Below are positions 7,846 through 41,500 of a stretch of 64,000 nt of DNA, piece after piece (within the stretch, counting starts at the first letter, position 1; every line of letters begins with the position of its first letter). The notes below the pieces were generated by a model. The model had not been told where the DNA came from. It made no database searches and was given only the letters and a program-made list of their open reading frames with translations. The position numbers and the translations under genes were made by a program. Origin of the DNA: Pempheris klunzingeri (Eukaryota; Chordata; Actinopteri; Acropomatiformes; Pempheridae); contig NC_092012.1 of the NCBI RefSeq assembly GCF_042242105.1, forward strand, positions 30,606,478-30,670,477. The letters run 5' to 3'.

Positions 7846-10800
7846 ATGCCTGCAGTCGCTAAGGGGGACGGGATGCGAGGCCTGGCCGTGTTCATCTCCG
7901 ACATAAGGAACTGTAAGTTTGTTTACCACACTCACAGACACTTCTCGGGTATGCTAGCAACAAGCTAGCTAACGTTTACCAGGGTTACAAACCGGTCAGG
8001 TCTGAACATGACAACAAGAGTCTGCTCTTGTTCTTTTCACCCTCAGTTTTGGTAAGTTTAACGTATTAAAGTGAGTTTCGACGACCAATTAGCTGGCAGT
8101 TGACATTAGCCGCTAGCTTCCAGTTGCTAACATCATGTCGAAGGGCGTGGACCGCCCGCACCGCTACGTTAAGCCAACGGTTTGTTTCTGCCAAGTCTGT
8201 GGAGCCTCAAGTTTGTCTAATTTACGGGTTTCAAACACTTTCCTGACACAAACTCAGCGAATTCTCACAAACGTGATTTACTATTGACGTTACACCTGAC
8301 AGTTTCACTAGCCGTGGTGAGGGGCAAATCAGGTGACATGAGAAAGGACGCGCACAGCTCACAGTGTGAGCAGCTGTGGTGTGTGTGTGACAATCAGTAG
8401 CTTAAAGTGGGCTCAGGCCAGCTACATCCATCAGTGCAGGGATTACATGTTTTACTACCAATAATTGTGAGTTATTATTATAAGTTAACGTTCACATCCC
8501 ACAAATAGGATTTATAAACTAGTAATCGGGACAAAAATTTACCAGGTATTAAAATATTGCATTTATATGGTCATCTTTATTTGTTGGTCATAAATTTGGT
8601 CAAAAATGTACTGTCAGTTTTTACTTGCCCCCAATCAAATAGTTTTATATATTAGTGGTTAACGAATAACAAAGATTAAAGTCAATTGTAATTTAAGTAA
8701 TCAAAACAGTTGTTGGGGTGTGAGCCAGAGTTATCTGCCTCAACGAACAAACACAATAAAATAAATGTAAAAAAAATAAAAAGAAAAGCTTTCTTTTAAA
8801 TAGGTGAGTCGAGAAATTAATTTTATCAATAAATTCAAATGTATTGCTCAGGACAATGTTTATAAATGAAAGTGTCACTTGGGTAAGTACACTATGGAAC
8901 AACCACTGCTTCTCTGAGCTCCCTCAGTTAATATGAACACAAATGTTCCCCAAGAAGGCACTTTCTCCTCAGCCGTCTGGGGGGGGGGTTTGGTTTTGCT
9001 GTGTCTGACCTTAAGCAAACATCTGTTTGCTGTTTGGCTGAAGTCCGTGACAACTAAAAGCAAAAGACACACAGCTGAGTGGCACTGAGAGTTACACAAG
9101 ACACGGCAGCCATAAAACACAGGTAACATTAGTGGAATCATTTAATCTAGTTTGTTGTTAAGGGAAAAAAAAGATTAAAAAATCAGGTGTAGAGTAAAAA
9201 AAAATCTGAGATTTTATTTTTAGGCCGTATTGTCTTTAACTCGTTTGTTTCCACTTCCCTGGAGTTGCAAGATTTACTTGCCTGACATGGCTTTTTACTT
9301 ATTGTGAAACCATGCCTCAGAAAGAAAGATGGATAGACACAGAGATGACTCAGGATGATTTGTTCCCTCTAGTTCCCATGTTTAATCAAATCGCCAGATA
9401 CACCCAACAGCTAACAAGGACTCCAGAAATGAAGGAGGAACAAGAGCTGAGGCCCACAGAGCCTGTCATTATCAACATATTCAGTTTCATTTCAGATACA
9501 TATTCACTTATGGGTGAATGTAACACATGGTTTAAAGTTTTGGAAGACAGAAACATTTTTTTTCCTATTTAAAAAAACGAAAAAAAAACAACTGCATCCT
9601 GTCCTAAATGACCCTACTGCTACAACAACCCATCCCCTCAGTTCCTCTGCCAACATTCAGATCCTTTTCTATGAGATCATAATCTCAAATGGGTTTCATA
9701 GTTGAGTGAGGAGATTCTGATCTCTAACTTTTGAGATTCAGATGTCACAATCCCAGGAAAACACCTCAAATTCGATTTCTTTGCTGAATGCCATATGCGA
9801 ATGTGCAAAAGAGGTGTAGTTGTGACATTTCAGTATTTCATTGTGTGATATACACTAACACATGAGCTACAGCAGCAAAGGACCATATGGGGTTTCACTC
9901 CTGTCAGCTAAGCAAAGGAAGCTGTGGTACAGGCTCACAGAGACTGGACAGTAAATACCAGTCTAGTTTTGTTGAAATGCTACAGCCTACCAGCAGCTAC
10001 CGGCCACCTCCAGCAAGATAATGCTCCATGTCATAAACATGTCATATGAAGCTGATTCCTCGAACAAGAGCTCACAGGACTCCAATGGCCAGTCACAATG
10101 GAGCACCTTTTGAGATGTGGTGGAATGGGAGAGTTGCAGCATGAATGTGCAGCTGCCAGATTGACTGTGTGATGCCATCATGACAACATGAAGCAGGAGT
10201 TTATTCAATCCATGACACGAACAATTCAAGTTGCCCTAATGTACCTAATAAAGCGGACACTGAGTGTAGCCAATATGTGCATGTATGATGACGCTGCTCT
10301 GCCCTTTATAAAAACACATAAAAGAGCCATAACACTACACAGAGTGATATATTTCTTCATTACGATGGACACAGCAAGTATACTCTGTCCCTCTGAGATC
10401 ATCTAAAAGGAGCAAAGCAGAGTAAATGGGGAGGAAGGATGCTTTATTCAACTTAATGAGTGATCACTGCACTACATAACATGCAACATATCTTGGTCTC
10501 TTTGCAGGTAAAAGTAAAGAGGCAGAGATTAAGAGGATAAACAAAGAACTGGCCAATATCCGTTCCAAATTTAAAGGTAGGTGAACAATTCTGACGAACC
10601 AGACTAAACCTGAGGGACAGGGAAGCATGTGGCATGGAGGGCCTCTAATCGACTGGTTCTCATTCCATCCAAACACTGATTTGTAGCACCTGGTGTATTT
10701 ATGATTGGGATGGAAACCTTTTTGCCATGATACAAAGTTTCCTGTTGCTGTTATTCTGCTTTGCTAACTCATCTTGTAACTGTCTCTCAGCTTTATTCCT

Positions 10801-13800
10801 TTCCTCACACTTTGTCAATGGCTGTTGCTTTGTCACACACCTCACTGTCAATGTGTCCGTCTTACTCTCCTGTTGGTGTTGTTTCTCCTGCCACCTGTTC
10901 CCCACTGCCTATAATTAGTTTGCTCCAGAATGAATCTGCGTCCTCTGCACATAGTGCCTAGCATGCCGGCCTATGTTCATTCTAATGTATTCCTTATGTG
11001 CATTATTCCAAGCATTGACCAATCTTTGGCTGTGAGTGTTTTCCCATGTGCTTGCCCTTTCCTTTTATATAAATTATTGTTGTTGTAAAAAATTGTCTTC
11101 CCCCAGCCACACCAAATCCAATATTTTTTGGGAGGAGGTTTTAGGCACTGTTCGATAATCCACATATAATTTATAATAATAATCCAGCACATAATTTCAA
11201 GCATAGTGACACTTGTGACTTGTGTGGTGGCCCAACAGTTCAGTGGTGCTTCTGTTATTCACCTAACGGTTAACAAAACAGTTGTAAGTGTGTAACTGGC
11301 TATAAAACTTGGGATCAGCCAAAGTCTATCCTGCCTTCACCGCCCATTACTCATCAGTTTGGTATACACTAAGTGAACTCATTCTTTAGCCTACCTCACT
11401 CACAGGGCAGTGTCAGACCAGTGTAACTTCATGTAGACATTCAAATCTCTCTTTGTGTGTGTGGGTGTGGATGTGTGTGTGTGTTTGTGTGTGGATAGGA
11501 GACAAGGCTTTAGATGGCTACAGCAAAAAAAAGTATGTCTGCAAGCTGCTCTTTATCTTTCTTCTGGGCCATGATATCGACTTTGGACACATGGAGGCTG
11601 TCAACCTCCTCAGCTCCAACAAGTACACAGAGAAACAAATTGTAAGTTTGTCCTCATGTTCAGTCAGTGTCAAATGTTCAGAGCTTGTTCATCATTTGTC
11701 ACACAATTCTGTTTGTGTTAAGGGGTGTAAAAATAACTTGACATATATTGTTGCCCCTTTATACGGTGGAATTGCACTAAAAGCATTTTCCATGTCCCAT
11801 TTCAGGGCTACCTGTTCATCTCTGTTCTGGTAAACTCTAACAGTGACTTGATCCGTCTGATCAACAACGGCATTAAGAATGACCTGAGCAGCCGCAACCC
11901 GACCTTCATGAACCTGGCCCTGCACTGCATTGCAAACGTGGGCAGCAGAGAAATGGCCGAAGCTTTTGCTTCTCAGATTCCCAACATCTTGGTGGCAGGG
12001 TTTGTACACAAACCTTAATAAAATAGATTTGGCTCTAAATGATAAGCAAATAAGTTGGTAGTGTTAGTCAGGAGAGAAAAAAAAACATTGAACTCATGGT
12101 AAATGGTTTGATTGTCTTGGACACTAGTGGCTCTGAGTTTCATTTGGATGATACGGAAGACAGCTTTGTCTTCAGTTGTTTAAATGTCTAGTGGTGTAGT
12201 CAGCTGATAGCAGCATGTGTCATACACAAAAGATTACCAGATACAGCACTCCAGAAAAGCCTCCACAACTAATTATTTCCTTTATTTCTTTTTTTTGTTT
12301 CAAGCCAGTCTGTCGTGATTCTTGATGTAATATCATATTTAACTGAGGTTTAAGAGGACTATGTGCTGATTAAAGCTTTGTCTCAGAATATGACTTGGTC
12401 TTTTTGATGGCCTTGATCTTCAATCTGAATACACACAGCTCTAAGCCAACAGTCCAACTAACACTGAGGCTGTCATAGAGAGGGAGGGTTTTACAGCCAC
12501 CCTGTTTTTTCATTGCATTAGGCCTGGGTAATGATATGGTTTTTCACACTTCTGTTGTTCTAAATAAGGTTTTAAGGCAATTTGTAGTCAAAAGCTAACA
12601 AAATTAGTTACCTAAGATGTTGTTTTAGATGTGTACATGGTTTTCTTTCATGTAATCCATAACAGTGAAATTGCTTTAAACATTGTGATCAGCATGCTTC
12701 AATAATTGAGTGATTTTGCATAATATATAAAGATGCATATCAGTATTGGACAAATATCCATATTACTAGAGAGGGTGTCAAGTTTCTTTGTTAAGGTCTT
12801 AAAAAGTTCTGTTGCATTTCTGACAGATTAGCTTCACTGTGGTCAGTTTGCTGCCCCCGGTGGCCAATAAACATGTGATTTTTTTTTTTTTTTTGCATGA
12901 CACAATGGGGGCTTTTCTATTAAAATATACATACTATTGCCTCTAGCAACCACAGGTGATGGCAAATAATCCAGGACTGAAATCTTCAAGATAATATGTT
13001 GGTGACCATTTGAATCTGCATTTGTTGGGTTATAATGAAGTTTTATTGTGCTTGCTGCTGATAGGGACACCATGGACAGTGTGAAGCAGAGTGCTGCACT
13101 ATGTCTGCTAAGACTCAACAGGACGTCTCCTGACCTGGTGCCCATGGGAGAATGGACAGCACGAGTGGTCCATCTACTTAATGATCAGCACCTGGTAACA
13201 AAATAAAGTATACTCAAACTAGAAAGTAGTTTTTTGAGTGTGCCTTTCATGTTAGTATCAAATGGTAAAGTTGTTATTTTTGGGTATGCTGCAACAACAG
13301 TAAACTATGACAATTAGTATGTAGTACACACTATACAGAGCTGACATGTAATACTCATTCACTCTCTCTAATGTCTGTGCATCTGAATCAGACCTGAGTT
13401 TTATTTCTTGTACAAACATGCATCTGTCTGTTTTCAGGGAGTAGTAACAGCGGCTACCAGCCTTATTACCACTCTGGCCCAGAAGAGTCCTGACGACTTC
13501 AAAACATCCATCTCCTTGGCCGTGGCCAGGCTCAGTAGGGTGGGTGTCTTAATAACATCCCCTGATATCTTCAGCACGCTGAGGTCACAGATAAAATCTG
13601 ATTTCAACATCTATTGATGTAATCATGTTCTCACTTGTCCAGATTGTGACTTCGGCGTCCATCGACCTCCAGGACTATACGTACTACTTTGTTGCTGCGC
13701 CATGGTTGTCTGTCAAATTGCTACGCCTGCTACAGTGCTACCCTCCACCTGGTATGGTACAGTACAGTCATGTGTGTCTGGAGGAGAACTTATGATCCAG

Positions 13801-15371
13801 TGTAGTCCATCACCTGACTAGTGATTAGGCAAACTTCATTAACATCATAATGTGGTTAAAGGAGAAAATGGCTGGTCATTGATTTATTTGTTTTTTGTGT
13901 GTGTGTGTGTTTCATTTTACATAGAATAGAAATAATAGAATATTTAAAATAGAAATTTTACAAGAGCTCAAGAACTCAAAATGTATGTCTCCTGTAACAT
14001 TACATAGAGTGATCTGATTCAATGTATAATTCAGCATTAAGGTCTGAGTAATGAAGCTGACGAGTTAAAGTAAAGGCTGGGAGGTATTAAGAGCGTAGCC
14101 TTTGTTGTTACAGAAGATGCAGCTCTGCGAAGTCGTCTGACAGAGTGTCTGGAGACCATCCTCAATAAAGCCCAGGAGCCGCCCAAGTCCAAGAAGGTCC
14201 AGCACTCCAACGCAAAGAACGCTGTTCTTTTTGAAGCCATCTCCCTCATTATCCACCATGACAGGTCGGTCACATTCACTGTGACAAGTTTCTGCCAGTC
14301 ATTGAATTCCTGAAACATTACAGAGGCATGTTCTGGAAAAGGAATATCTGATTCATTTCCTGGGTAATATTACCACTGGGTCACTGGTTATGCCTTTAGC
14401 AAACTGTGTTTGTTTCCAACATGTTGAATTGGATGTTAGTTTTTAATGCAGCTATAGCCAACCCAGACTGTAACACTGCATTAGAATCTCCAAGAATTGA
14501 ACATTAAGCTCGAACCAAGATATGCTATATCTTTAAACAAGGCCACTTCAAGGCCACAGGACAAACCCAGCTGTGATTAGTTCACATTCCCGTCTACTGG
14601 GGCACTTGTGCGTTTTTGGATGTGGAAATATGTTCTGGCCTTTGGACATTTCAGCTAATTGTTGTATCCTGTTCCTCAGTGAGCCCACCCTGTTGGTACG
14701 AGCCTGCAACCAGCTGGGCCAGTTTCTGCAGCACAGGGAAACCAACCTCCGATATTTGGCTTTGGAGAGCATGTGCACTCTGGCCAGCTCTGAGTTCTCT
14801 CATGAGGCAGTAAAGACGCATATAGACACTGTGATCAATGCTCTAAAGGTGAGTCCCTCATCAGGTGTGTGCCTTTGAAAAGCTTTTCCGGGTTAGTGTG
14901 AAAATGATGTGTACAGCTTGGATAATGTCTTTTAGAACCTGGTAGTCGCTCTTCCATATTTTTTAACCATTTGACCAGTGGGAAGCTGTGGAGTCTGAAT
15001 TGTGCCACTGGAATTGTTATTCACTTCTTGGTGGTTTAATACCACTTTGATAATTGTCTTTAAAAATGTTTTTGAGTTGGCATGAAAAACCACTCTTAAC
15101 GTTAGTGTTTTCTCAAAACATTGTAAAAAATGCATTTTGCAGAGCTTTAGAACTTGAAATATATCCGTTGTCTTTCAGAATTCGTCTTCCAACCAAAATG
15201 CACCCTTGGGCTTTTCAAACCCAGGCAACATTAAATATCAAGGTCATTTATTTTACCTTTTACAAGTCAGGATGTGAGGTTGGGACTATAAAAATGTAGT
15301 GACCAGGTTACATGGCTGCCTTCGTCTATGTCCTCTGCTCTCTGTGTACACCAAAGAGCTGCAGGTCTGAG

Positions 15372-15421
<50 letters not shown>

Positions 15422-18400
15422 CAGAGCAGAGAGGTCACAGCGGACAGGGTGAAGCTTCGCTTCAGCTACATTCACACAACATCCAGCAAGTCGACACCTT
15501 CCCTTAGGGTTGTGTGGCGGTGTGGAAAGTACAATAGTTTGATCCTGAATATTAGAATGGAGCCAGATCTCTGTAAAGATGTGGGCACAACAGTCCCCCA
15601 CTTACATTTGGTCCATCTCATTTTCTTGCGGCCGGACATTAGCCAGGAGCAGCCTTAGGTCCAGGCTGGGTTAGCTTAGCTCTTATCCCAGCACTCTTCC
15701 TCTCCTCCAGGGGCGGTCGCACCACCCACGGCGGCGTTTGGTCTGCCTGGACCGGCTGGGTGATCGTCTCAAGGTCCACTGCTCTTAATCCAATCCCCGC
15801 GCTTCCTTTTCCAATGCCTACGAGTGTATTTCCGTCATAGGTAATACATGTTTCAGAAATAAAGCCGGGAAAAAAAAGACCTTGATTAACTCCTCCCATC
15901 CTTCCCCTCCTCACCCAAACAGTCCTGGTTGGGTAAATTTTATGGCCTTCCCTTAAAATTGCTGGCAGTGCATGTGTAATAGGCCACAGTGGAATTTAAG
16001 TAGCTACAGCTGATGAAATCTGCCAGATACATCCGTCATTTCATATATTCTGTGCATGTTTGTTTTCTATACAGACTGAGCGAGATGTGAGTGTTCGCCA
16101 GCGAGCTGTGGATCTGCTCTACGCCATGTGTGACCGCAGCAACGCCAAGCAGATTGTAGCAGAGATGCTGAGCTACCTGGAGACCGCCGACTACTCAATC
16201 AGAGAAGAGATAGTGGGTCATCAGTACAGGCCTTTACGCCATTTAGTTCCTCTGTGTGCTTGTCTCACCCTCAGCTAGTTGCTTCTCTTCCTCAGGTGCT
16301 CAAGGTGGCTATCCTGGCAGAAAAATATGCAGTGGACTACACTTGGTACGTGGATACCATTCTCAACCTCATTCGAATCGCCGGTGACTATGTCAGTGAG
16401 GAGGTGTGGTACCGTGTAATCCAGATTGTCATAAACCGAGATGATGTCCAAGGCTATGCTGCCAAGACCGTCTTTGAGGTGGGCATGAAGTTTCCTGCTA
16501 TCTCAGACCACCTTGAATGTCAGTATGAATTAACAGCATCCACCTCAACAGTGTTATAAGCAAACATTTCCATGTGTGGGAAGTGGGAGGTAGCTAAAAC
16601 TGGTTACACCATGAGGGAATACATGTGGTTGAAAATAGAAAACCCATTTCAGCAATCATCCCCAGGCCTCACATGGGCCTTTGCTTTTTCTCTTTTAGGT
16701 GCACATTCAAAAACAGAAATGTGTTTTTCCAGTCCCTCCACAGGTGCACTAACATGCTATAGACAGGCATCAGCTAGAATGAGGTGCTTTGTTTCCTGTT
16801 GTCTGCCACAGTTGTCACATACAGCAGTGCCTATTGCGTTCAGATAAAGCACAAGGAACCACACAAGGAATGAGTGATTGAGTCATTATTGAATATTGGA
16901 GGGGGCTATCAAAGTAAAGTTTAGATGCATCTCTTTCTTAATGCAGAGCTATTCAGCTGTCAAACAGTAAGTAAGTGTGTACAGCACACCGAATAATCAA
17001 GGGAAAAAACAAAAACATGAATTCAAAAAATGTGATGGGGACATTCTGAGCAGCAGTTATGATTCCTCACTGCATAAAGTTGAAAAACTACTATTTTTTT
17101 AAAAAAATAGAAAAAGTAACCAAAGTGGGATGAATACAATCAAGTTTTACCACTAGCAATCAAAAGAGACCCTTCAGGCTGATTACACTCCAACCCTCAG
17201 ATATCCTCAAGGAGCCGACACAGTGGGAAACCAGTGAGGGATTGTGTCCTTGTTGCTAGACAATGTGACATCCACATTTACGATGTCGACTAAGTGGTTA
17301 CTTACCGATTCTATTCAAAATGTTACAGTAGATGGCAGTGTGCGGTTTCTTCCATGTTGTTCCTGACCCAAAACTGCCATGCTTTGTGTGCACTTGCAGG
17401 CACTCCAGGCTCCCGCCTGCCATGAGAACCTGGTTAAGGTGGGGGGTTACATCCTGGGAGAGTTTGGTAACCTGATTGCAGGGGACTCGCGCTCCAGGTA
17501 CAAACGACATACTTTTCAGAACCATGTATTGCATTGTGTGGATATCATTTGGATATCATCAAAAAATACATATGAAAATTCAACAGCTTAAATGAGAGAT
17601 GTCTTTTGGCAATTTTTATGAACCACACTTTTAAATGCATGGGTGAAAGCCAGTGTTGCTTAATATACAAAGGAAATATAGACTTAGTTTCCTGTAGTGC
17701 TGACCTGAATGTTTGAATGTTGTTACTGTCATTGTTCTGTGCTGTCTTCTCATTTAGCCCTCTGGTCCAGTTCAACCTTCTGCACTCAAAGTTCCACCTG
17801 TGCTCTGTGCCAACTCGGGCGCTCTTGCTGTCGGCCTACATCAAGTTCATTAACTTGTTTCCAGAAGTCAAGACCACGATCCAAGACGTCCTGCGCTCTG
17901 ACAGCCAGCTCCGCAATGCTGACGTGGAGCTGCAGCAGAGAGCTGTCGAGTACCTGAGGCTCAGCTGCATCGCCAGCACTGACATACTGGTTAGTGAATT
18001 ATGCCCGAAGTGGACAAAATACTGATAACAGTCTTTCAGTCTCAATCTCATACACACTCGAAAACACACTGTTATGTCAGAACATATACAAACATGAACT
18101 CACACACACACACACACCCTTTACTGTAACACCTGCTATTGGAGGAATCTTCTGTATGTTAGTAGTCTGCTACAATATCACGTGATGGTATTAAAAGTAA
18201 CATTGCATATCTTTTCTGAAATTTAGTCCACATTTTGACTGGATTTCCTTGGTATTTGTAATATTAGTTCACATCCACACTGAAAATTAAACATTTTTAC
18301 TGTCACAGCGCCATTCAGTGTATTATAAAGGAAGTCTTGTCTGAAATAGAAAATCACAAAATTACTGTATTTGCCCTTCACAGGCCACAGTCTTAGAAGA

Positions 18401-21400
18401 GATGCCTCCATTCCCAGAGAGAGAGTCTTCAATCCTGGCCAAGCTGAAGAAGAAGAAGGGCCCAGGCAACCTGCCCGACATCGACGATGCCCGGAGGAAC
18501 GTCAACGGCAGCACCGAGCACAGTGAGAACACTGAAGCCACAAAGGTGACTCCACAGCACTGTGATAGGTAGCAGAGCATTCTGATCAATACAGCTTGGG
18601 TTTTTATTTTTACACAAATCCTACAGAGGAAAAGCATTTCTGGTTTCTCATACAAATCGGCATGTTTAAGAATTTCCTGCTATGAGTTCTCTGTAGCATT
18701 CATCCATAATCCTCCACAAGTCTGTATCACACAAACAACATTGTAACAGTCAGACTGTGTGTATTGTTGTATATTGTATTGTGGTACTGGTTTGCAGCCT
18801 TTTGGCCTTTAGCTTTGTTTTCTTCCATCTCAAGCATTTCCTTGATCTTTACCTTCACTTGTCTCTCTCTCCTCCCTTCTCTGTCCTCACCCCCTGTCCC
18901 TCTTTTCCTCCTTCCATTCCTTTTCTTTCTCCATCAGTCTTCTCCTTCACTGATGGCAGACCTTCTTCCTACCAACAGACCCCGCCCGTCCTCCTCTAGT
19001 CCCTTCATGCTCTCTGCTGGGACCATGGTATACTGATAGCTAGAAAACACCATGCAGTATAGCAGTTATTATACCAATCAGTCATGTTATTGCATGTTCT
19101 AGTGTTTGGCTCAGAAGGTCGTCTGTATTCTCTCCACTTGCTTTTTGCTCTTTTACGTAAAGCAGCCTTGAAGAGATTTGGCTTTTGTTACAGGACTGTG
19201 TGGACAATGTCTTGGCAGATGTTGGACACTAATGAATTTTTATTAAATTTAGCTCATCTGATTCTGGTTGTATGTAGACACTGTATATTAAAGATGGTAT
19301 TTGCTGATTTTTCACACCCAGAGTTCCACCCACCCCTTCACAGACCTGCTGAATGTAAACGCCACCCCTTCAGCAGGAGCCAGCCTGCTAGTTGATGTGT
19401 TTTCAGACAGCACCACCCCTGCATCCATAGATGTGTGTGAGGAACATTTCACCAGGTGGGACCATACTGCGAGCTTGGTTGATGAAATTAGCAGAGAAAT
19501 AGATGCCGTTTGTAAATAGTTATACATACTGGCGGGTAATCCACATTACATATTAACGGGGCACTCCAGAGATTTAGTATTGTACTACACGAGACAGATT
19601 TTTAAAAAATGGATGGTCAAAATCCAAGCTGTAGAGTCTGGGATATCATTATTTTTAATCTGCTACATGAGTCAGACTCCAAAAGCACTGGAACTTGCAT
19701 TTGCCATAATGGAAGTGGATATTATTAGACAATCTTTGGCAGGTAAACACATTTTTTCAACTCCACTGCCCCACTTTGTAATGTAGGTTTTACACATTCG
19801 TTATACAGCCTGGCTGAAATGAGTGTGACTGCTGCTGTGCCCTCTTCCACATCTGCTTTGAACATCAATCAGCAGAAGTGCAGACCTTTACAGGAAGTTG
19901 TTGTTGTAAATGTGTAATTGTGTGCTTGTAAATTCCAGGTTTGTTTGTAAGAACAACGGTGTTATCTATGAGAACCAGCTTTTACAGATTGGACTGAAGT
20001 CTGAGTACAGGCAGAACTTGGGTGAGCAGCTTTTTCAAATCTATCAGACCTGTTCAGTTTTAAGGATGGTTTCAAAGGCTACCTGAGAGAGGCTGCGTTA
20101 AAGAATAACGAAAAGACTGGTAGTGGTTAAGGGACAGATGTTATTAGTTCAGAAAGAATGAACCTGCTGTTGTCCCACAGGTCGTGTGTATGTGTTCTAC
20201 GGCAACAAGACTTCTACCCAGTTCCTCAGCTTCTCCACGTCAGTGACCACTCAGGATGAGCTCCAGACTCATATCTTTTCCACTGTTTGGTAGCTTCATG
20301 TTACAGCAAGCACTGCAGTTTACTTAACACAAGTAACTTCATCAACAAGTACTGCCGCTTCGTCCCTGCTGAGGAGAAATTTGCACCTGAGTTGTGTCTG
20401 CGTGCCACTCAAACTGAGCAACGTAAAAAAGGTACCTGTTGAATCCTTAACCATCGTCTCCACAGCTGAATGTCCATTCTAAGACAGTAGACCCCATAAT
20501 AGAAGGAGGGGCTCAGGTCCAGCAGATCATCAACATTGAGTGTGTTTCAGAATTCACAGATGCTCCGGTGCTCAACATCCAGTTCAGGTTGGTGTTGGTG
20601 TCTGAATACGGTCATTACTGATCTGTTAGTATTTATACTTAAATATACTAATATCTGACTGTGTGTGTGTGTGTTAACCAGATATGGTGGAACTCTCCAG
20701 AACATTGCAGTTAAACTCCCTGTGATGCTGAACAAGTTTTTTCAGCCTACAGAGATGACATCCCAAGACTTCTTCCAGCGCTGGAAACAGCTTGGAGCGT
20801 AAGGCTCACTTCATGCTGGCCGAGCTGTGTGTGTCATTTAGGTTGCGTACAAATGCGAGTGTCAAACAAAAAATGAACTGAATGAAGTTCAAATAGGTTG
20901 TATATATATATATTTCTGTTTTTAGCGGCTGCGTTCTATAGTAACATGTTCTTGTTATAATGACCTGCTCCCTCCCAGAAATAGTTATTCTCCTCTCATG
21001 CCTCTCTGTGTCTGCAGTCCTCAGCAAGAGGATCAGAGGATCTTCAAAGCCAAACACCCAATGGACACAGATGTGACCAAGGCCAAGGTGAAAAACTGCT
21101 CAGCCGTAGACAAGAACCAGTTGTTTGTGAGAAAATCCAGGACTCTCTCATAATTTATCTTAACTTGATATATGACATGAAACATTGACAGCTTAGAGCA
21201 AATCGTTTGTCGGTGCTCCACTTTTCTGCTCATTGTGTTAGTGATGCATTTAGGATATGGCATGGCATGATGTGGTAAGTTTATTTGTAGTGTTTATTGG
21301 ACTCATTCAGGGTGTGTACGTTGTTCTCTAAACACTCAGCAGAATCCCCCAGAATGCTTTGGTGCCGGTGATGCAGTTTTTTACCTTTTTTTGTTGTTAT

Positions 21401-21820
21401 TTTGCACTAAACTACAGCACTTTTTAAACTCAGGAGGGAACTTCGGGATAGTCTCATGCATCTAATTAGTTCTCATAAGAGGAAAAAGTATCTTCAGATT
21501 TATTTAGCTGACAAATCCCATGCACATGCTGCGAAGAAATCACATGTATGAGTCAGGGCCGTGTTCACGCCCACTCTTTTCCCACTCTTTCTCCTTCCCT
21601 CCTGTAAACGATGTCATAGATCTTAGGTTTTGGTGTGGCCCTCCTGGACGGGGTGGACCCCAATCCTGCAAACTTTGTTGGAGCTGGAGTCATCCACACT
21701 AAGAGCACTCAGGTGGGCTGCCTCCTCAGACTGGAGCCCAACACACAAGCACAGGTAAAGAGACACACTCGAACAAACCCAGACTCATCCCTGTAATGAA
21801 CCATCATATCTCCTGTGTAA

Positions 21821-21857
<37 letters not shown>

Positions 21858-21941
21858 ACCCAGATGTACCGCCTCACCCTCCGGACCAGCAGGGACTCTG
21901 TGTCTCATAGACTGTGTGATCTCCTCTCTGAACAGTTTTAG
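7846..21941 (+). CDS. ap2a2: AP-2 complex alpha subunit (alpha-adaptin), complete, 23 coding exons
   Basis: Large subunit of the AP-2 clathrin adaptor, which binds PtdIns(4,5)P2, cargo and accessory proteins at endocytic sites on the plasma membrane. Coding exons: 7846-7912, 10508-10576, 11499-11641, 11806-11999, 13065-13194, 13438-13539, 13643-13751, 14114-14264, 14680-14848, 16075-16212, 16296-16478, 17400-17497, 17758-17989, 18384-18545, 18938-19027, 19322-19455, 19939-20021, 20181-20270, 20464-20587, 20682-20798, 21018-21087, 21620-21754, 21864-21941. They sum to 2868 nt, or 955 aa (human about 940-977). The solenoid trunk is residues 1 to about 620, with the PIP2-binding set K55, K56, K57, Y58, K61 intact. 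The hinge has two DLL motifs (657-659 and 687-689). The ear runs from about 725 to 955, with platform Trp at 857. Ear features ([28 protein letters not shown]) favour alpha-C/AP2A2 over AP2A1. Intron 18 is AT-AC; all others read GT-AG. Confidence 0.96.
9842..10270 (+). mobile_element. Second Tc1-like transposon remnant, in ap2a2 intron 1
   Basis: In plus orientation this holds the 3' part of a Tc1-like transposase. It contains a QDNAPCH block at about 10013 (the catalytic DNDPKH-type motif), then LQWP and EHL separated by a deletion where PPQSPDLNPI normally lies. It ends in a CCTAATAAAG-type terminus at about 10243-10270, a common end of one fish Tc1 family. The 5' half is missing and the frame is broken, so it is a dead copy. 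It is a different Tc1 subfamily from the remnant at 5.9-6.4 kb. Confidence 0.75.
15374..15420. repeat. (AC)n microsatellite, 47 bp
   Basis: Uninterrupted AC dinucleotide tract in ap2a2 intron 9. It abuts the LINE fragment that follows. Confidence 0.97.
15425..15915 (-). mobile_element. L2-like LINE endonuclease-region fragment in ap2a2 intron 9
   Basis: On the minus strand (15914 down to about 15430), broken frames give an Arg/Pro-rich lead-in followed by [15 protein letters not shown] and [16 protein letters not shown]. These match the order (LLxNVRSLxNKMDEL, then TETWL) at the start of the L2/Rex-type LINE apurinic endonuclease domain. At least one frameshift and one stop interrupt it, and the reverse transcriptase part is absent. 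It is inserted antisense to ap2a2. Confidence 0.65.
18938..19027 (+). other. ap2a2 hinge exon with DLL motif, candidate cassette exon
   Basis: This exon is 90 bases and phase 0 at both ends, so skipping it keeps the frame. It encodes [12 protein letters not shown] and then a Ser/Pro-rich tail. The next exon (19322-19455) starts with a similar unit, [12 protein letters not shown]. Mammalian AP2A hinges are known to be alternatively spliced in AP2A1; whether this exon is alternative here is inference from its symmetric phase and duplicate look. Confidence 0.55.
20271..20463 (+). other. AT-AC (U12-type) intron in ap2a2
   Basis: No usable GT donor with a good consensus follows exon 18. Instead the exon ends at 20270 and the next bases are ATATCTTTT, one mismatch from the U12 AT-AC donor consensus ATATCCTTT. 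Near the other end, TCCTTAAC at 20444-20451 matches the U12 branch-site consensus, 12-13 bases before the terminal AC at 20462-20463. Splicing this way gives LQT-Q-LNV across the junction, agreeing with LQTQLAV in human AP2A1. The following AG is therefore exonic. Retention would add six residues or so and then a TAG, removing most of the ear. Confidence 0.8.
21824..21851. repeat. (GT)n microsatellite next to last ap2a2 acceptor
   Basis: A GT-rich run ends a dozen bases before the acceptor CCCAG of the terminal ap2a2 exon, so length change here lies inside the polypyrimidine/branch region. Confidence 0.85.
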
Positions 21942-24640
21942 ACTCACACAGCTCCAGCATTTTTACACCTTTGCTCTCCTAGTCTCACTTTAGATTGGAA
22001 TGGATGTATTGTACAGTGTAAATTCTTTTTTTATTTGACTCACTCTACAGGCAAATGAAGTGAAATGTATTCTTCGCACATGCTTTACTAATACATCACT
22101 GCTTCAAACCTGCCTTGTGCTCAGCAGGCGGCGCTCTGCAGCTCCAGTTTGAACACTTTTGAAATGCTGTGTCATCGCTGCTTGAGTGCTGCCTTTCTTA
22201 TTCAAACGCTTGAGGAGTCAGTTAGGAAGCATTAAAGAGATTCAGGTAGTTGAAAATCTGAATAGGATTATGAGCTTAGGTATGATCTCAACAATCAACT
22301 CACTTGTTCTAGGAGACATTTATTCTTGTGTTTTAAACAAATGTTGCACAGAACTGGGAAGCTTTCCTCAACTTCTCGCCCATTTTGCACTCGTTAGGTA
22401 AAACATTAGATCACTGAAGTAGATCAGATAGATTTAGACAAGAGAATTTACTTCACCTGTTTTACACGTCTGTCATCTCAGGAGGAAAAGCAAAGCTTTG
22501 CATTGCGGTATTTTTAGTAAAAAATAGACCTCGGATGCGACAATTTTGGTTCTGTCGTGAGAATTTTTTGAGCTACATCACGACGCACCGAGTTCAGACG
22601 ATCAAATAAAATGTCAAGAAGTCAATATAGAACACTAGTTAGCAAATGGAAATCAATTTCTGATAGTGATGGAACTCACTTTGTTCCCAGAATACCTACT
22701 TCACTGCTCACAGATGCACCTGTGAACTTTAGTTACTCTGTCAAGAACAGAGAGCCTTCAAACAGACGAGAGTATTTTTAGAGTCTGAAGCACTGCCACA
22801 CTGTCACACTACTTCTGCCTAAATGCATTCACTCACAGAGCACTGCCAAACTGGTAATATTTCTATATTTCTACAATGTATGGCGTATTTTCTGTTTTAC
22901 TGTTATTTACTTCTATTGTAATCCTTGATGGCGTATTACATATATGCTGAGTACAAAGTCCGGCTCTGTCCAAAGTTGGAAGGAGGAAGTCGTTGATGAT
23001 GCGTTTAGTGCCTCCTGGCTCCAGCTTTATCTTTACCAGACAGATACGAGAGAATGAATGAGGGTATGTACCAAAACGTCTCACTGTTCTTTAAAGAGCG
23101 TTCTTTCACAATGTTGATCCACATTTCAAAGACGAACAGCAGAATACATCTTTACACTGTGTTAAAGGGTTTGGATGGTTCCTGAACACTGATGCCTTAA
23201 TCTGCCCCTGAGGAGCTTTACTGTAGTTACCGTGTTTTAACGATGGGTGCTGGCCCACACCTGTTTATCCACCTATGTCCTGTAGAATATAAGGTACCAC
23301 ATCATTAAAAGACCAGTGGACTCGACCCTTTTGGAAGTCTCGAGATCTCACGTTTACTTATGCGAGGCCCTGGAGATCCTAGACCAACCAGCCCAGTGTC
23401 ACAGTGTGCCTTCTGTGTTTTTATGTAAGTCAAGGGATGACCTTTCATATCTGTTAACAGTGAATAAAACAAATGTAGCTGTACATGATCACTCGACAGT
23501 GAGCGCTGATGTTCTTTCCTCATGTTTAGATGCAGCACCATGGAGCGGTCAGATGACTGCAGTGTGTTTAGTATCCAATGCCCTCAGCTGGCCAAAAGAT
23601 CAGTTAGTTTTATAACCTGGGTCTTATTTTCATGTTGTAGAAGTTTAGGGAAGAAAGGAGACGCTGGATATGTTGTTGCTTTTTAAATGTGATGTCATTA
23701 CAACATCCTTATCCAAAAGCTGTTATACAAATTTTTTTAAAAATCAGCATTTTCTTTAAAACAACATAATTATACAGTATAATTGCAGAACTCCCAAGCG
23801 CTGTCCTGGGGTGTGTGAGCGCCCTCTAGTGGCACAGCTTTCAGACAGATGAATGTTTTGCAGGTGAATCCGTTTGTTTCCGCTTCTGCTCTACATCAAA
23901 TGTGCTTTAGACAAGTAACGACCCAGGAAACACGGAAACAACGGGTGACTGCAAACGTTTTTGCCACAACATCATCCTTCATGATAAATTCTGAAGTTGA
24001 AACAAGCAATACATCGAGATATATTTGTTTTTTGATCAGCTTGGGGATTTGTCACAGTAGAGGCACTACATCCTGTCTCTGGGTCGTACTTTTGTCAAAT
24101 GTCACAGAGATGTTTGTCAGTCAGTGTATCCACCGTACAAAGTCTATTTACGCCTCATGTGACTAAAGTATTTGCACCTACCGATTCTAAACAAATAGGA
24201 TCAGTCATTGATTTCCACTTTGAAAGTTTGCTCTTATCCAGCCTCCGCTGACTTGGTCATCATGTGAAAAAGGAGTGTGTGGTAATTGATGCTGTGGATG
24301 ATTAAGCAAATTTTACAGAGTGTGTAAATGGATCTGCGTTAATAAATAAGGTGGGAATAAAATTAAAGCTGAATTGTGAAAAGCAACCATGACAACCAGT
24401 CATGTGGCCAAAGTGTGTCAGCAGTGACATTTGATCAAAGCTCCAAAAAGCAGGTGGACTTCTGGGTTTAGATTTTGTCGCACAAGGAAAATAGAATTTC
24501 ATGAAAAAATTCACTTCACTTGCAGAGTTGCAGCAGTTCTTTACTTATGAATGTGTGTATTTTTCTTCCAAATGTTGCCTTTACAACCCGGACAACCTTA
24601 AATAAGCAAATAATGAGTAAAACACGATAGCTTTGAGTGT
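21942..24640 (+). other. ap2a2 3' UTR and convergent intergenic stretch
   Basis: No further coding exons are seen. Candidate polyadenylation signals AATAAA occur at 22605-22610 and 23463-23468; which one is used cannot be decided. Short open frames here (for example 23316-23615) have no recognisable similarity. The ap2a2 and c19orf12 transcripts converge in this interval and could overlap if the distal site is used. Confidence 0.5.
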
Positions 24641-24644
24641 ATAA

Positions 24645-24650
24645 TTTATT
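24645..24650 (-). terminator. c19orf12 polyadenylation signal AATAAA
   Basis: TTTATT on the plus strand reads AATAAA on the minus strand, about 350 bases beyond the c19orf12 stop codon. This is a plausible 3' UTR length. Confidence 0.5.
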
Positions 24651-25002
24651 TGACATTCATAACCAGATTAAAAATACCCTGATACAGAGTGTGGGAATAA
24701 AGAGATCACATTATAAATGACTCCCCAGGCACAATGTCATACAGAGTTTTAAAAAAAGCAGAGAGGAAAATTCATAAAAAACAACAACCTTATTTGTAAT
24801 AAAGTCACTCTGCATTCATTATTGAGCAACACAGACTTCTATCATGACTGTGCAGACAGTAGGATACACACTCAGCTTGGCACAGTAATGATCCATTATT
24901 CAGGTTTTCCAGAGAAGTACAAAAAAACACACTGGGCCCAAAGTGCTCCTGTTGTGTCTGGCAGTCCTTTGGCATCCTGTTTAGTTCACCTATAACCATA
25001 AC

Positions 25003-26330
25003 TCAGTCCTGATAGCGCACCTCTGCTCTGAGCTCCTTTGTGATGTAGCTAAGCAGCGCAGCCGTGACCTGCTGCTGCAGGGTGGCGTTGCCCATCACGA
25101 GGGCGATGAGCTGGGCCGCGTCCGTCCAGGTCAGGCTGCCCAAGACGGCCACCACGTCATCGCAGAGCTTATTCTGCTGGGCGGGAGGCAGCTCCATCAG
25201 GATCTGAGGCAGAGGCTTGAACTGGCCGCTCGTCAGCCAGCTGCCCAGGAGACCACCTATCGCTCCACCTGGTAGAGGCACGAGGGGGTGGGGGGGTCAG
25301 TATAACTCCACTGGAAGCATGTTCTAATATGAAGTAAACCCGCATTGAAGACAACTGATGAGGAATCTTAAAGGATAACTCTGGTGATATGTTTTTACAT
25401 CAACTGGTCTGGTTCACTCTCACTTCTCATCTGCATTTCCTGCTGTTTTCAGCTCTATCTAACAAAGTTGGAGACCAGCTGGTGGAGCCTTTAGCAGCTT
25501 AAGAGCCAGATCTTGTTCTCATCCAACAGAGCTTAAAAGAGAGTGAGTATTGGAATTTGTATGTTTGCTGTGTGTGTGTGTGTGTGTGTACCTCTCTCCA
25601 AACTGATAACTCTTAAACCTGGCACTGATCATCCATGTTTCTTCTGCCTAGGAGAATAAAACTTTAAGCTTTTTAATAACCGACCCTGATTTTGTTTCTC
25701 TCTTTCTTTCCTTCTTTCTTTGTATGGCCTGCCCTCTTCCGGGTTTGTATGTACTTTGTTGTTCTGTACTCTACATGTGACATCTATTTCCTGTCTACCC
25801 GTCCTAGCACAGGGATGCCTCCGCTATTACCCATCACAAGTTCTCAGAGACTGCATCGACAAAAGTTTTGCCCAACCAAAAGTCAAAAGCCCAAATATTT
25901 TGAATATAAAACAGCAGCAAATCACTGTTGATTCATCCTCTGCTGATCAATAACCCTGCAGTGACTAAGGAACAGGAGGTGGTGCGTTTAAGTACCGTTA
26001 CAGAAAGCATTGGCCGTGCCTTAAATACACGTATGTCCTTTTGGATTAGTCAGAAAAGAGTTTTCTATTTGGACTCTACAGTCTCAAAGGCCCCTGTGAG
26101 TGTGGGCTACACCTGAATCCCTGATCAGACAGCTGTGATGTCTGCTTCAGCAGTACATTAGTATTCTTACCAACAGCAATCCCTGGAGGTCCGCCAAGCA
26201 GCCCCCCCACAAAAGCAGTTCCTCCTGCTACCGCCGCTCCTTTGGTGGAGTTCTTCACCGCCACCTTGATCTGATCATGAGCTGATATTTCACAGCACAG
26301 ACGCATGATGTCTTCCATTCGTGGAGCCAT
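25003..26330 (-). CDS. c19orf12: C19orf12 homologue (membrane protein, NBIA4/MPAN family)
   Basis: Small membrane protein of mitochondria/ER contact sites linked in humans to neurodegeneration with brain iron accumulation. Its biochemical activity is not established. Coding exons on the minus strand are 26330-26171 (53 codons plus 1 nt, donor GTAAGA) and 25268-25003 (stop TGA), giving 141 aa, the usual length. The first exon has MEDIMRL and then a glycine-zipper stretch ([18 protein letters not shown]) that continues across the splice into [19 protein letters not shown]. The conserved C-terminus includes [28 protein letters not shown] and the end [14 protein letters not shown]. Start at 26330 is chosen because the upstream leader exon has a stop-terminated short frame. 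It sits next to ccne1 as in human 19q12, with two genes in between. Confidence 0.95.
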
Positions 26331-27322
26331 CGCTGCTATTAGACACTGGCAGGAGAGGAAAGAGGACAGTCAGCTCTGCTGTGGTCTCACCTAGAAAATA
26401 AAGACCCCATCTCTCAGCCTTGGGTCAGACTAGAAGGAAACCTCATTTTGCTCTACAGTTTGCAGTCAGTTAGTTTGCAGTAAGGTTATTAAACACATTT
26501 GAATCTGTCCTATGTGTTAAAACATAAACTAACACAATGACTTCAAATAGATTTTGACAAAAGGCCACAAAACTGAGTGGGAGCGCAGGAACCATCTTCG
26601 CTGATATTGTACTCGTCTTCATTTATTTTATTCAATTTATCAGTACTGAGCGGTTTCGAGCTTGTTTCCTCCACCTGCTTCAAAGAAGTGACAGACAAAG
26701 GAGGTACAGCACAGTTATCATGGAAAACTTGGTTTCACTTTTACTTGTAAGTACAGCATGGCCTGCATAGCATAAAATTACTAAAACGTCAAAATGATAA
26801 TGTAATAATACTAATTTAAATGTCCCCACATTTTACAATTTTTTTCACCAAAATACGCCGAATCTCAGCATAGATACTATTAATTAGTCAAATATCCAAA
26901 CTCAAAATGTGCGCGTTATTAATGCCTACCATTAGCGTTATTTTATTAAATTACCCGGTTTCTGAATGGAGTTTGGTAGAACAGATTCGTTAGTGAGCAC
27001 AGCAGTCAATTACTGGTCTAAACAGCAAGGCTCCATATCAAACTGACTTAATACAAACTAAATTAGACATAATAAGCTACTATACTTATGCAGTGTCTTT
27101 TTTAGGCTTAATCAACCATGGTTTGACTAAAAGTTCGCACTGTTCTAAGTTTCCTTTCTGTTTAAACGTTAGAGCTACCAAACAAAGTATGAGTTCAAGC
27201 ACTAAACTTAGAAGTTCATTTCTTCATCTGTGTTTAAGCTGAGACAAGCGACAGAAGGCAGCTCGCTGTCACCAGCCTTCCTTCGGCAGTTATCTACTTG
27301 TCACAACAGGTTTCAGACTCAC

Positions 27323-32055: not shown

Positions 32056-35000
32056 TCATTTTCGAAGGTCACAGATCTTTCCCATGAACCTCTTCACTCG
32101 CTCCGGGTCGACTGCGTTGGCCCAGTGGCCGCCTTCCTTGAAATGAGAACCGATGATCATTCCATTTGCATCAAGGTAGCGTTCAATGTTGTCGTAGGTC
32201 ACTCCAGAGCCGATGAGCACCGGGATTCTCACAGACTGGGAAACACCTGCAGAAACAAAGACACAGCAGAAGAGTAGCAACTTTTAAAAGAGCACACAGT
32301 ATACTGCCTTTATTTCCTACTCGCTTCTCCCCAGCACATGTACACAGTATAATGAAGGTACATAAAATCTGAGGAGGCAGACATAAAATGCAGAGGCCTC
32401 AAAAGAAGATGGTCTTTGCAGGTGTATCCTATGTGATTTGTTCCATCTCATACACCATACATTTTGAATCAAGATGTGGAGGTTCAGGTTTCAGCTATCG
32501 TGCTGTGATACATTTAATTGCAGCCCCCAAGACTAATTGTAACAAATAGATTTTGGCCCTCCCCTCAAAGCCTTCGGGACAGCAGCGAGGAGGACCACCT
32601 TTGGATCTTTGAGGATAGCTTGGTAGAAAACTTCCTCAGAAATAACTTAGGGCATGGTCAGAAAATATTAGTGTGGTTTCCATTTAAAGCTTAAAGTAGT
32701 TAATGCCATCCTTAGTCCATTTAAACCCACTCTTTAACTGAATTTGGAATTTGGCCACAGATGGCCACAGCTTCAGACTTATCCATGTTAACTTCATACC
32801 TGGATAATATCCTACCGGAAAATAAGCTCTTTTAGACGCGGTATTGTTGTTGATTCCATTAAGAAGAGCGTCACATCATCAGCATAGAGTGATAACTTAT
32901 ATTCTTCTCTATTGATAATGGTGTCCTTAATAGTCATCTCAAATGAGCAGGCACAGAGGCTCAATACTGATGGTGAACAATGGGGTTGAGTGGGCATCCC
33001 TGTGTACAACCCCATTCCAGTGTAAAACTCTTCAATCTCCACAGTGTGTGATTTTATTGTGAAGGGGACCAAACCAAGAGCGGCAGTGATATACCTAGTG
33101 AACTTTGGACACAGAACAGGCTAACCTCCACAGTTAAATATGAGCTCCAGTAGAAAGCAAAGGGGAAAGTGTGTGTGTGTGTGTGAGAGTGTGTGTTTCT
33201 TCTCATGTGTGTGAATCCAAGGCAGTTTTGTACGTCTTGTTGGAGACATTGGTGTTGCTATGGGAGAGACATGGTCCAGATTTCAGACCCACTGACAAAC
33301 CTGGGTCCCTTCTATCACAGCCTCCTTGGACACTGATGGAACTTGGAAGAAGTATTCAAATATTGGTAGAACAACAAAATGTACAAATAATCAATTACAA
33401 GTAAAAATCCTGCATTCAATATTTTACTTTTAAAAAAATAAGATTAAATAGGCCCCTTTCAGTGTCTTTTTATTGGATCATTATTACCAATAAATGTAAT
33501 ATGTTGCTTATATAGCAGTATTTCTGCTATATATGTTTCATATACGACATCATTTTTTAAAGGTGATCATGTGTTTTGCGTATACATTTTGATTCTGCAA
33601 TGCAACTAGAAACAATAGCTGTGAATGTAGTGGAGTAACAAGTACATTATTTCCTTTACAGCAATGAAAGAAGCATTCAAATAAGTGTAAATAACAATGC
33701 AACAATTCAAAAATACCCAATTACTACAACCTCTGCGTTGGAAATCTTACTTCAGCAACGGTACAGAGGTATTATTAGAAAAATGTATTGTAAATGTATT
33801 GTAAGTAAAAGTACTTGTTTTATGCAAATCTAACTCCAGCTGACATATATAGTTTATAAACTTTAGTTTAGAAATATAGTTTATAAACTTGTTAGCAAAC
33901 AGATGCTTATTTGCACATCCAGTGGATATGAAGCAACATTAGCATTCATTTTTTTGTCATGTTGTGCAGCTGGTTCACTGAAAAACTGTGTAGGTGGAGG
34001 CAAGTTTGATGAGAATGGAAAGAATGAATCGAAACGGTTAAGTTGCAGGCCATAAAACCAAAACAAGGAGCCGAAAGAGGCTAACAAAGCTCAGTAAAGC
34101 TGAGGGGAAGTGCAGAATCAGGTGAAAATCATGTGGATTGGTTCCTTTTTTTTCACTGTCGCTAAGCCATTTTCAGTGCAGACATTTTGACTTATCACAG
34201 CAGGAAAAGCACAGCTGTTGCTATTAACATTAACGATGGCTCTGTTCAAGTGTCCCAGTGAGCCATGACAGTGTGTCAGTGAGCCAGCATGAACAAACCA
34301 TGAAACTGAAACAGCTTAATGGAATTCACTCAATGTATTATGTACTCCTGCGCTTTGTCTGCTGTGACGTACGAAAATGTCTGCTGTAAAAAGATTGATT
34401 AGCGCTGCCTTTAGTTCACACAGTCCACCTCTGGAAATGTAGCGGAACTTTCACTTTTACTGAGTTTGGACAAATGTGTGAAAACTAGAATAATGAGAAT
34501 GACTGTCCTCACCTGGAAATGATACGCAGTGAGTAAAGTATATACCACACAGTCTTCACACTTGCTCATATTTAAAACTCAACTAAACGGTCTCACCCAG
34601 TGGAGTTCAGAGTTTAGATTACTTAATGTCCACTTAACACTTGTATTGTACTGTACTATATATGGTGTGTGTGAGTGAGAGAGACAGACAGAGTGAGAGT
34701 GCATGTCCAGCATTCCTAAACCGAGACACAGTGCAGCCAAGCTTCAGCTTCAGGGTGCCATATTGGGTGAATACCGATCATTGGTCAGGAACTCCCATAC
34801 TGGAGGACATCCAGACAGGTGAGAATGTCCTCTGCTGGACAAACAGGGCACTGACTTCAAGGCTGTGGTACTTCTTAAATCTGGGGAGTTACTTGCTTTT
34901 TTTTTTGGTCTGATCTCATCGCTCATTTAGTATGTGTCTGTTGTATTATGGCTCCTGGTTGTATCAGTTAAGTGTGACAGTACCCCGCAGCTCCTGAGGG

Positions 35001-38549: not shown

Positions 38550-41500
38550 ATGCGAGGAAAACGGTGAGTTTTCTGTTTGTTTCCTCTGTGAAGAGTTTCT
38601 TTTTGAGCGCGTCAATCAAAGTGTGTGACGACAGAAAGAAAAGTTGAGTTGATGCTTTAGCCACCCGGGGAGTTAGCTTGTTGCTATCGGACCTGATTTT
38701 GACCATTTTAACATGTTTGTCCACTGTTTTGTGCGGATTCTGGAGGTTTACAGCCACGATTCTTTTGTCTTGTGTTGTCACAGGGAAGAAACAGAACCGA
38801 AGTCTGTTGCTCCCGAGGCGCCCAAGGAAAATACAGTACGATCGAGAAAGAGGAAGGCAGATGTTGCCATTGTAAGTAGTGTGAAAGGCTCGCAGACTGG
38901 CTCATAATAAGCGGCCTAAACCCCATTTTGAGCAGCAGCGAGATTTCACATGTAGGCCTAATTGAATAACCAAGATAGAAACCTTGTCACATGCAGGATG
39001 TTCATCCTTGTGACAGTGATAGTACCCAGGATCTGTGATTGATTTGTAACTGATATTGTATTGAATGTAACAATTGCTGCATATATTAATGCTTTTTTTT
39101 ATTGGTGTTTGCAAAGTAAAAGCACCCTGGTTCAGTTTCTGCTTTTCACAGATTCTCACATGCTGTGGAAAGTGATCTGATCCAACCAGACCCATGCTTG
39201 TTCGCGAAACTGAGTTGCACACAAAATAACAACCGTTTTCCCTCTTCGCCCCCCCCAGTATTTACATGATGTGGATGAGGAGGTAGCAGAGATGACGAAG
39301 AAGAAGCAGCGTGACTGTGAGGTAGGATCGCTTGTCTCGAAGCATGTACCTCAGTACAGTAATCAGTTGGTCTCTATTGTATCATAAGCGATACGGCTGG
39401 TATTTAAGATGACTGATCTATTATTAATTGACACTAGTTGGGGAGGTGTGCGTTTATTCCCTCTTCAGGCCCTAATGTTTGCAGTCAGCATATTGAAGAA
39501 TAGGCGTTAACACAACATGTTTCTTTATTGTTATCTTACCTTCTCATTTTCTTTGTGTCATCTCTCTGCCTCTCCCTCTTTCTTGCGAAGCTGGGCTGGA
39601 GTCCTGATGGCGGTTACACAAGTCCACACAGGTGGATCCCCACACCTGATCAGGAGGAGGACCAAACAGTCACTCTGATAAACGCAGGCTTCCCCCACTA
39701 TAACTTTAACAACATATTCACAACCCCCGTGCATTGTGCCCCGCTTCCTGCGCTGTGGTGAGTACTATTCTTGTGTGGTTGGGTATATGAGGTTAGGTAG
39801 TACATCATGCAGCCGCCCGTGCCCTCTCTTGTATGTAGGCACAAACTGACGGACTTCAAATGGATGCCTAGGCTTAACATACGTGTCTTCTTTCATAATA
39901 CTGCTTTTTTCTGGGGTTGTGTCTTATAGGTTTTCCTCCCTCACCTTTTAATCACTACCCACCCTGCTAGGGCTAAAATATTATCTAGTGGTTTCTGTAT
40001 CTGTCCACGGTAAATCATAATTTAAATGCAACTGACACAGCTTTGCACATCAGGTGGGGCAGTGAGGATTTACCATTGTCTGTCTCTGTGTTTATCAGCT
40101 GGGCCAGTAAGGATGTGGTATGGAACAACATGGTGGAGAAGGATAAGACCTACACCAGGGACGTCCACATGATGGAGAAGCATCCTCATCTGCAGCCCAA
40201 GATGAGGGCAATTCTCCTGGACTGGCTCATGGAGGTCCGTTGCGTGTCTCAGTGTGACGACCTTAACACCTCTTTTGTCAACACCATTGTAAACAAAAAA
40301 GCATATAATGCCTTTCACTTAGATAATCTCAGCTGTTTACCTTACAGAATATCATTAAGTTTCATGACTGTAGAGTTAACTCTTATGGTAATGGTGGACT
40401 TGACTTTGTGGATAATCATCAGTATCCATTTTGTGCCACAAATGGCTAAGTGATAGTCAACAGCATCTTGTGGGGAAACATACTTATTACATTCAGTAAA
40501 GACCCTATCTGCTGTAGCCTCTTTTGGTTCTTCTTCACATCAGAGGATAAAGTGCCATCAAAAATGGCACTAAGGGCTACACGGAAGCAATGTGGGTCCT
40601 CACCAGAGTGCTCCCTCTCTCTCTCTCTCTCTCTCAGAAAATGTCTACAAGCCAAATGAAAAGTAGCACTGCTTGAAATCCATGCTGCATACTCATTATA
40701 TCTGCACACGACATCCATATTCTTTATCACTTGAAATACGCTCGGTGGAAGTCTTACAGTGACGTCCTTCTGATGCACATGCTCACCTGTAGTAGTCCTG
40801 CACTGTCCAACGTTTCACAGAAGTCGAGGTCACCACTAATTAGACTAATGACCATTAATCACATTGAAAAAGATGCCCAGGTTAAGCGGTGTTCCCCATT
40901 TGGACATGTTTACTACATGAGACTGAACAGAAAAACCACCACCTGAATCAGGAAATAAACATGATGACATTTAAGTAAAAAAAGAAACACTACAGAACAG
41001 AGTTTCCTGTGCCTTTTAACTATTTCATGCTGCGGAAAACATGCTGAGAAACCAAACTCTTCTTTGCTATTTTCATTTTTAAGATAAAATGGTGCAGAAA
41101 AGGAATCTCACTAATCGTCAAAGATACATATGACTTTGTTCCAATTAATAGGATCGAGTCTTTGCCTATTGATGAGCTTCTCCTGATGAACAAACCATCT
41201 TTATTGTGAACATCCTGACACCTTAATGTCCACAGTTAACTCACTTAAACCTACCGGTGGATGTCACTTGAAGTCATGGGGGGGTGCCACATCAGTGCAG
41301 TGATGGTCTGTCTGTCTGCATGTTTTAGGTGAGTGAGGTGTACAAACTGCACAGGGAGACGTACCACCTCGCCCAGGACTACTTTGATCGCTTCATGGCC
41401 ACACAGAGGAACGTCTTCAAATCAACGCTGCAGCTCATAGGCATCACGTGTCTCTTCATTGCTGCCAAAGTAGAGGTAAGAAGGGTCACACAGCACAGGA

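Follow-up and report, generated by a model that had tools for sequence, protein, structure and literature searches.

In introns of the U12-type AT-AC class, the 5' splice site follows the consensus ATATCCTTT, with the start ATATCC and a C at +5, and the branch site resembles TTCCTTAAC and lies about 10-16 nt from the intron end; these donor and branch-site consensuses hold for U12-type AT-AC introns in general, and the intron described below shares them. U12-type introns are also biased against phase 0 (PMC7367187, partial text). The closest described counterpart of our intron lies between exons 19 and 20 of human AP2A1: a 2008 paper (PMC2603472, partial text), which drew its U12 introns from the catalogue of Levine and Durbin (2001), lists it as a U12 intron with AT/AG termini and reports measurements of its splicing. 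The AP2A1 primers given in that paper encode, when translated by hand, SVQFQN upstream and LAVQTK downstream, and thus bracket the same interval of the ear. The human intron is of the same gene family, of the U12 class and with an AT donor, like the intron of the ap2a2-like gene analyzed here, while its AT/AG termini differ from the AT-AC termini of the latter, a discrepancy that could be a real subtype change or an annotation difference. The STK11 and C3G introns of the same paper share both the AT-AC termini and the U12 class with the ap2a2-like intron. Since the human AP2A1 intron is listed as U12, the U12 nature of the intron in this family was already known. Hence, when an earlier note on this DNA assigned the intron to a small class, the U12 AT-AC introns, the class was right but the implied rarity was overstated, a human counterpart having been published.

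PMC2603472 was the sole paper found to contain both 'U12 intron' and 'AP2A1'. Literature searches combining AP2A2 with U12 terms returned no paper, neither the AP2A2 copy nor an AT-AC form of the intron came up in the literature searched, which covered main texts, and AP2A1 and AP2A2 were absent among the matches listed in a further search. The string AP2A does not occur in the main texts of PMC10639083, PMC6717393, PMC9501576 and PMC8034651, nor does AP2 in the main text of PMC8280824, nor do adaptor, clathrin or AP-2 in that of PMC2831892.

The gene of interest is an alpha-adaptin gene carried by the plus strand of the window (the whole 64-kb stretch of DNA that was analyzed, located on contig C1 of the 645.9-Mb genome), and exon mapping places its coding part at about 7846 to 21938. 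A second alpha-adaptin gene lies on contig C17. We take the window gene to be ap2a2-like and the C17 gene to be ap2a1-like, both names being given from resemblance to known proteins. The features of the ear region of the window gene are as follows.

20022-20180, + strand: preceding intron, GT-AG, from exon mapping
20181..20270, + strand: upstream ear exon, 29 residues and the first base of a Q codon, from exon mapping
20271..20463, + strand: predicted U12-type AT-AC intron, 193 nt, phase 1, from motifs, frame, paralogue and human counterpart
20271..20279, + strand: predicted U12-type donor ATATCTTTT, differing from ATATCCTTT at +6 only (C to T)
20285..20290, + strand: alternative in-frame GT donor ACT|GTTTGG, very weak, yielding HIFST if joined to 20466
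20444..20451, + strand: predicted U12-type branch site TCCTTAAC, 8/8 match, 12 nt before the intron end
20464..20587, + strand: downstream ear exon, AG of the Q codon, 15 residues...NIQF and part of an R codon, from mapping and PDB match
20588-20681, + strand: following intron, GT-AG, from exon mapping

The interval 20271-20463 almost certainly represents the AT-AC form of a U12-type (minor-class) intron that is conserved in the alpha-adaptin genes. The earlier note had proposed such an intron in the alpha-adaptin ear, and the proposal is upheld by the motifs, the reading frame, the paralogue, the snRNA genes and the published human counterpart. The intron reads ATATCTTTTCC...GAATCCTTAACCATCGTCTCCAC, with ATCCTTAACCATCGTCTCCAC at its 3' end. 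It is preceded by the exon letters GAGCTCCAGACTC, which end at 20270 (...DELQT, then C), and followed by AGCTGAATGTCC, which starts at 20464 (AG, then LNVHSK). The donor agrees with the consensus at 8 of 9 positions and has a C at +5; the change at +6 is its sole departure, in keeping with the single mismatch counted previously. Likewise, the U12 branch site that had been noticed near the intron end proved to be an exact 8-mer. When the two exons are joined, the ear reads LQTQLNV at the junction, and all 72 residues match 7 distinct PDB sequences; the five PDB alignments listed are gap-free and show LQTNLNL in the PDB sequences at the junction.

The strongest evidence, which is independent of any chance count, is the intron of the paralogue. 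At C17:6052034-6052587, the ap2a1-like gene contains an intron at the same position and the same residue, again in phase 1 and with AT-AC termini, so that the ear introns of both alpha-adaptin genes run from AT to AC; it is however longer (554 nt versus 193 nt). The letters at its junctions are GAGCTGCAGTCTC|ATATCCTTT...GCCTCCTTTACAACCAGCCAC|AGCTCAACGTTCAG. Its donor matches the consensus at 9 of 9 positions, including the C at +5, and a branch-like site with one mismatch, TCCTTTAC, is found 10 nt before the intron end. The phase 1 of both introns (C|AG) fits the U12 bias against phase 0. Family-wide use of GT-AG at this position, which would have spoken against the proposal of the earlier note, is not what the two relatives seen display: the paralogue is AT-AC, and the human AP2A1 intron is listed as U12 with AT/AG termini (PMC2603472). 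The two alpha-adaptin genes of this genome thus share a minor-class intron at an identical site, and its presence in the two fish genes, together with the human AP2A1 report, suggests that the intron is older than the alpha-adaptin gene duplication.

The ear introns stand apart from the other introns of the two genes. Indeed, 34 of the 36 introns mapped in both genes outside the hinge (mouse residues 625-708) are GT-AG, the two exceptions being the ear AT-AC pair. Since the mapping score granted a bonus of 20 points to GT-AG and of 8 to AT-AC, the mapping bias ran against the AT-AC result. Mismatches were tabulated for 32 of the 36 mapped introns (the four 3'-terminal introns, whose donors are GT, fall outside the table); the 30 tabulated introns other than the ear pair differ from ATATCCTTT at 5 or more positions, from GTATCCTTT at 4 or more and from TCCTTAAC at 2 or more.

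To estimate the chance expectation of the motif set, we scanned both strands of the 64 kb for a donor (AT fixed) and a 9-nt branch site near an AC, each allowed a single mismatch to the consensus, the intron being no longer than 250 nt. Matches started from the donor at 20271 only, with ends at 20463, 20337 and 20346, while 60 simulations of first-order Markov sequences produced on average 0.18 matches per strand. With introns of up to 2000 nt allowed, two extra matches appeared on the plus strand (33649-34729 and 54151-55568) and none on the minus strand. A second branch-like site, TTACTTAAC, is present inside the intron, in the window interval 20320-20346, and it is followed by AC at 20337 and 20346. 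These two decoy ends were rejected: joined to 20270, they would lead to a stop after LRPC (translation read by eye).

The genome contains genes for the minor-spliceosome snRNAs, each being the single match above the Rfam cut-off: U11 on C16 (118.9 bits), U12 on C17 (128.7 bits) and U6atac on C2 (135.2 bits). The GTAAGGA segment of U12 forms seven Watson-Crick pairs with TCCTTAAC, leaving one A bulged. It also forms seven in its best pairing with the TCCTTTAC site of the paralogue, with the difference that the bulged base is a T and not an A, which is less typical. The GAAAGGA segment of U6atac pairs with the paralogue donor through Watson-Crick pairs only; with the window donor, the expected register includes one G-U pair, and another U6atac register comes out slightly higher. 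As for the 5' end of U11, it pairs with both donors over six positions with one G-U pair each, in registers that are one base apart; in the register of the paralogue, the window donor has two G-U pairs. U11, U12 and U6atac would therefore be able to pair with the sites of both introns, which represents a potential for pairing, not proof of use.

We weighed three other ways of reading the junction. A major-class (U2) GT-AG intron spanning 20285-20465 would preserve the frame, end at a CACAG acceptor and insert HIFST between LQT and LNV, but we regard it as very unlikely. Its donor, ACT|GTTTGG, scores 0.68, whereas the 34 true donors, only one of which is weaker, reach a median of 7.3 in leave-one-out scoring, and 44% of the GTs on the plus strand of the window score at least as high; with -1.55, the equivalent donor TCT|GTACAG of the paralogue is weaker than every true donor. 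Besides, such an intron adds four residues that are absent from all five PDB alignments listed, and it makes the U12 motifs a coincidence in both genes. In the interval from 45 nt before to 60 nt after the AT-AC donor, the window gene offers four in-frame GT-AG choices: two remove part of the exon, and two keep it by using the 20285 donor, one of these ending at an acceptor that lies within the downstream exon. The earlier statement that a GT-AG reading needs a poor GTTTGG donor and inserts HIFST is accurate for the exon-keeping choices.

It had also been claimed that only the AT-AC splice restores LQTQLNV. This splice does give LQTQLNV, but if both ends of the minor-class intron are moved 2 nt in the 3' direction (20273-20465, AT...AG), the ear reads LQTHLNV, which scores equally well when compared with the mouse protein (46 versus 45 for AT-AC, and 57 versus 56 in the paralogue), albeit without a recognisable donor: the shifted donors, ATCTTTTCC in the window and ATCCTTTCT in the paralogue, lack the ATATCC start of U12 donors. 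Moreover, the C|AG junction yields Q, in agreement with the Q of human AP2A1 at this residue, which the earlier note gives as well (LQTQLAV). Although the listing of the human AP2A1 intron as AT/AG (PMC2603472, partial text) may speak for the shifted cut, we hold this cut to be highly improbable. Removal of an AT-AC intron by the major spliceosome has precedents in sodium channel genes, but the U2-type AT-AC introns described there are reported to have a G at +5 (PMC2831892, partial text), a position occupied by C in both alpha-adaptin genes. The U12 branch site of the ap2a2-like intron also argues against a U2-type AT-AC intron, which we deem extremely improbable.

With the U12-type AT-AC intron as the preferred reading, U11 would bind the donor ATATCTTTT and U12 the branch site TCCTTAAC, and U6atac would then replace U11 at the donor, in the established order of minor-spliceosome steps. 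The minor spliceosome would thereby join 20270 to 20464, producing an uninterrupted ear with LQTQLNV. We infer that this animal uses the junction 20270/20464. The role of the intron is most likely constitutive splicing rather than that of a dedicated switch. The gene model is thereby corrected where a predictor restricted to GT-AG would err.

If the intron is retained, translation of the window gene meets a stop after 7 codons (HIFSTVW), inside the ear, and translation of the paralogue stops after 58 residues (hand count). Retention would consequently truncate the ear in both genes, as the earlier note had foreseen for the window gene, and the retained mRNA would probably be degraded or give rise to an AP-2 alpha without a working ear. 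Both AP-2 alpha chains of this animal are thus candidate targets when minor splicing fails. In human cells, depletion of CENATAC hit 92% of AT-AN minor introns (PMC8280824, partial text).

The idea that AP-2 output could depend on minor-spliceosome activity is a hypothesis, on which one published set of human measurements bears. In lymphoblastoid lines, controls had a spliced:unspliced ratio of 36 for the AP2A1 U12 intron. In PRPF8 mutants the ratio was 29, a change that was not significant on its own, and the two groups of PRPF31 lines gave 39 and 40; all U12 introns pooled displayed a trend in the PRPF8 mutants (one-sided p 0.067) (PMC2603472, partial text). The major introns in the same paper had control ratios of 154 to 1683 for ACTB, GAPDH, PRPF8 and ZNF198, of 78 for RPGR and of 8 for APRT (PMC2603472, partial text); the last two values show that low spliced:unspliced ratios also occur outside the U12 class.

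We also considered a class switch, whereby limiting minor splicing would let the major spliceosome join a nearby in-frame GT to the CACAG acceptor. Both genes do have a frame-preserving GT shortly after the donor (14 nt from it, at 20285, in ap2a2 and 11 nt from it, at C17:6052045, in the paralogue), but these GTs are very weak, and we consider such a switch very unlikely. If it did take place, Q would be replaced by an insert, HIFST or HILS, and both AP-2 alpha chains would change their ear, or be lost by retention, with minor-spliceosome activity.

Two observations concern the surroundings of the intron. On the minus strand of contig C15 (23890051-23895117), 97 bp of the downstream exon (window 20461-20557) are found again with 98% identity. 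This piece abuts a copy of window 22452-27008, whose pieces are 88-95% identical, the interval 20558-22451 being missing. The C15 segment is a duplication in which part of the ap2a2-like gene was captured; it was rejected as a third alpha-adaptin gene, for it comprises an exon fragment only (97 bp), fused to sequence from 22452 on. Further along the plus strand of the window, at 39989-42472, open stretches resemble cyclin E as judged by eye and from recall, and we assume that a ccne gene probably lies downstream.
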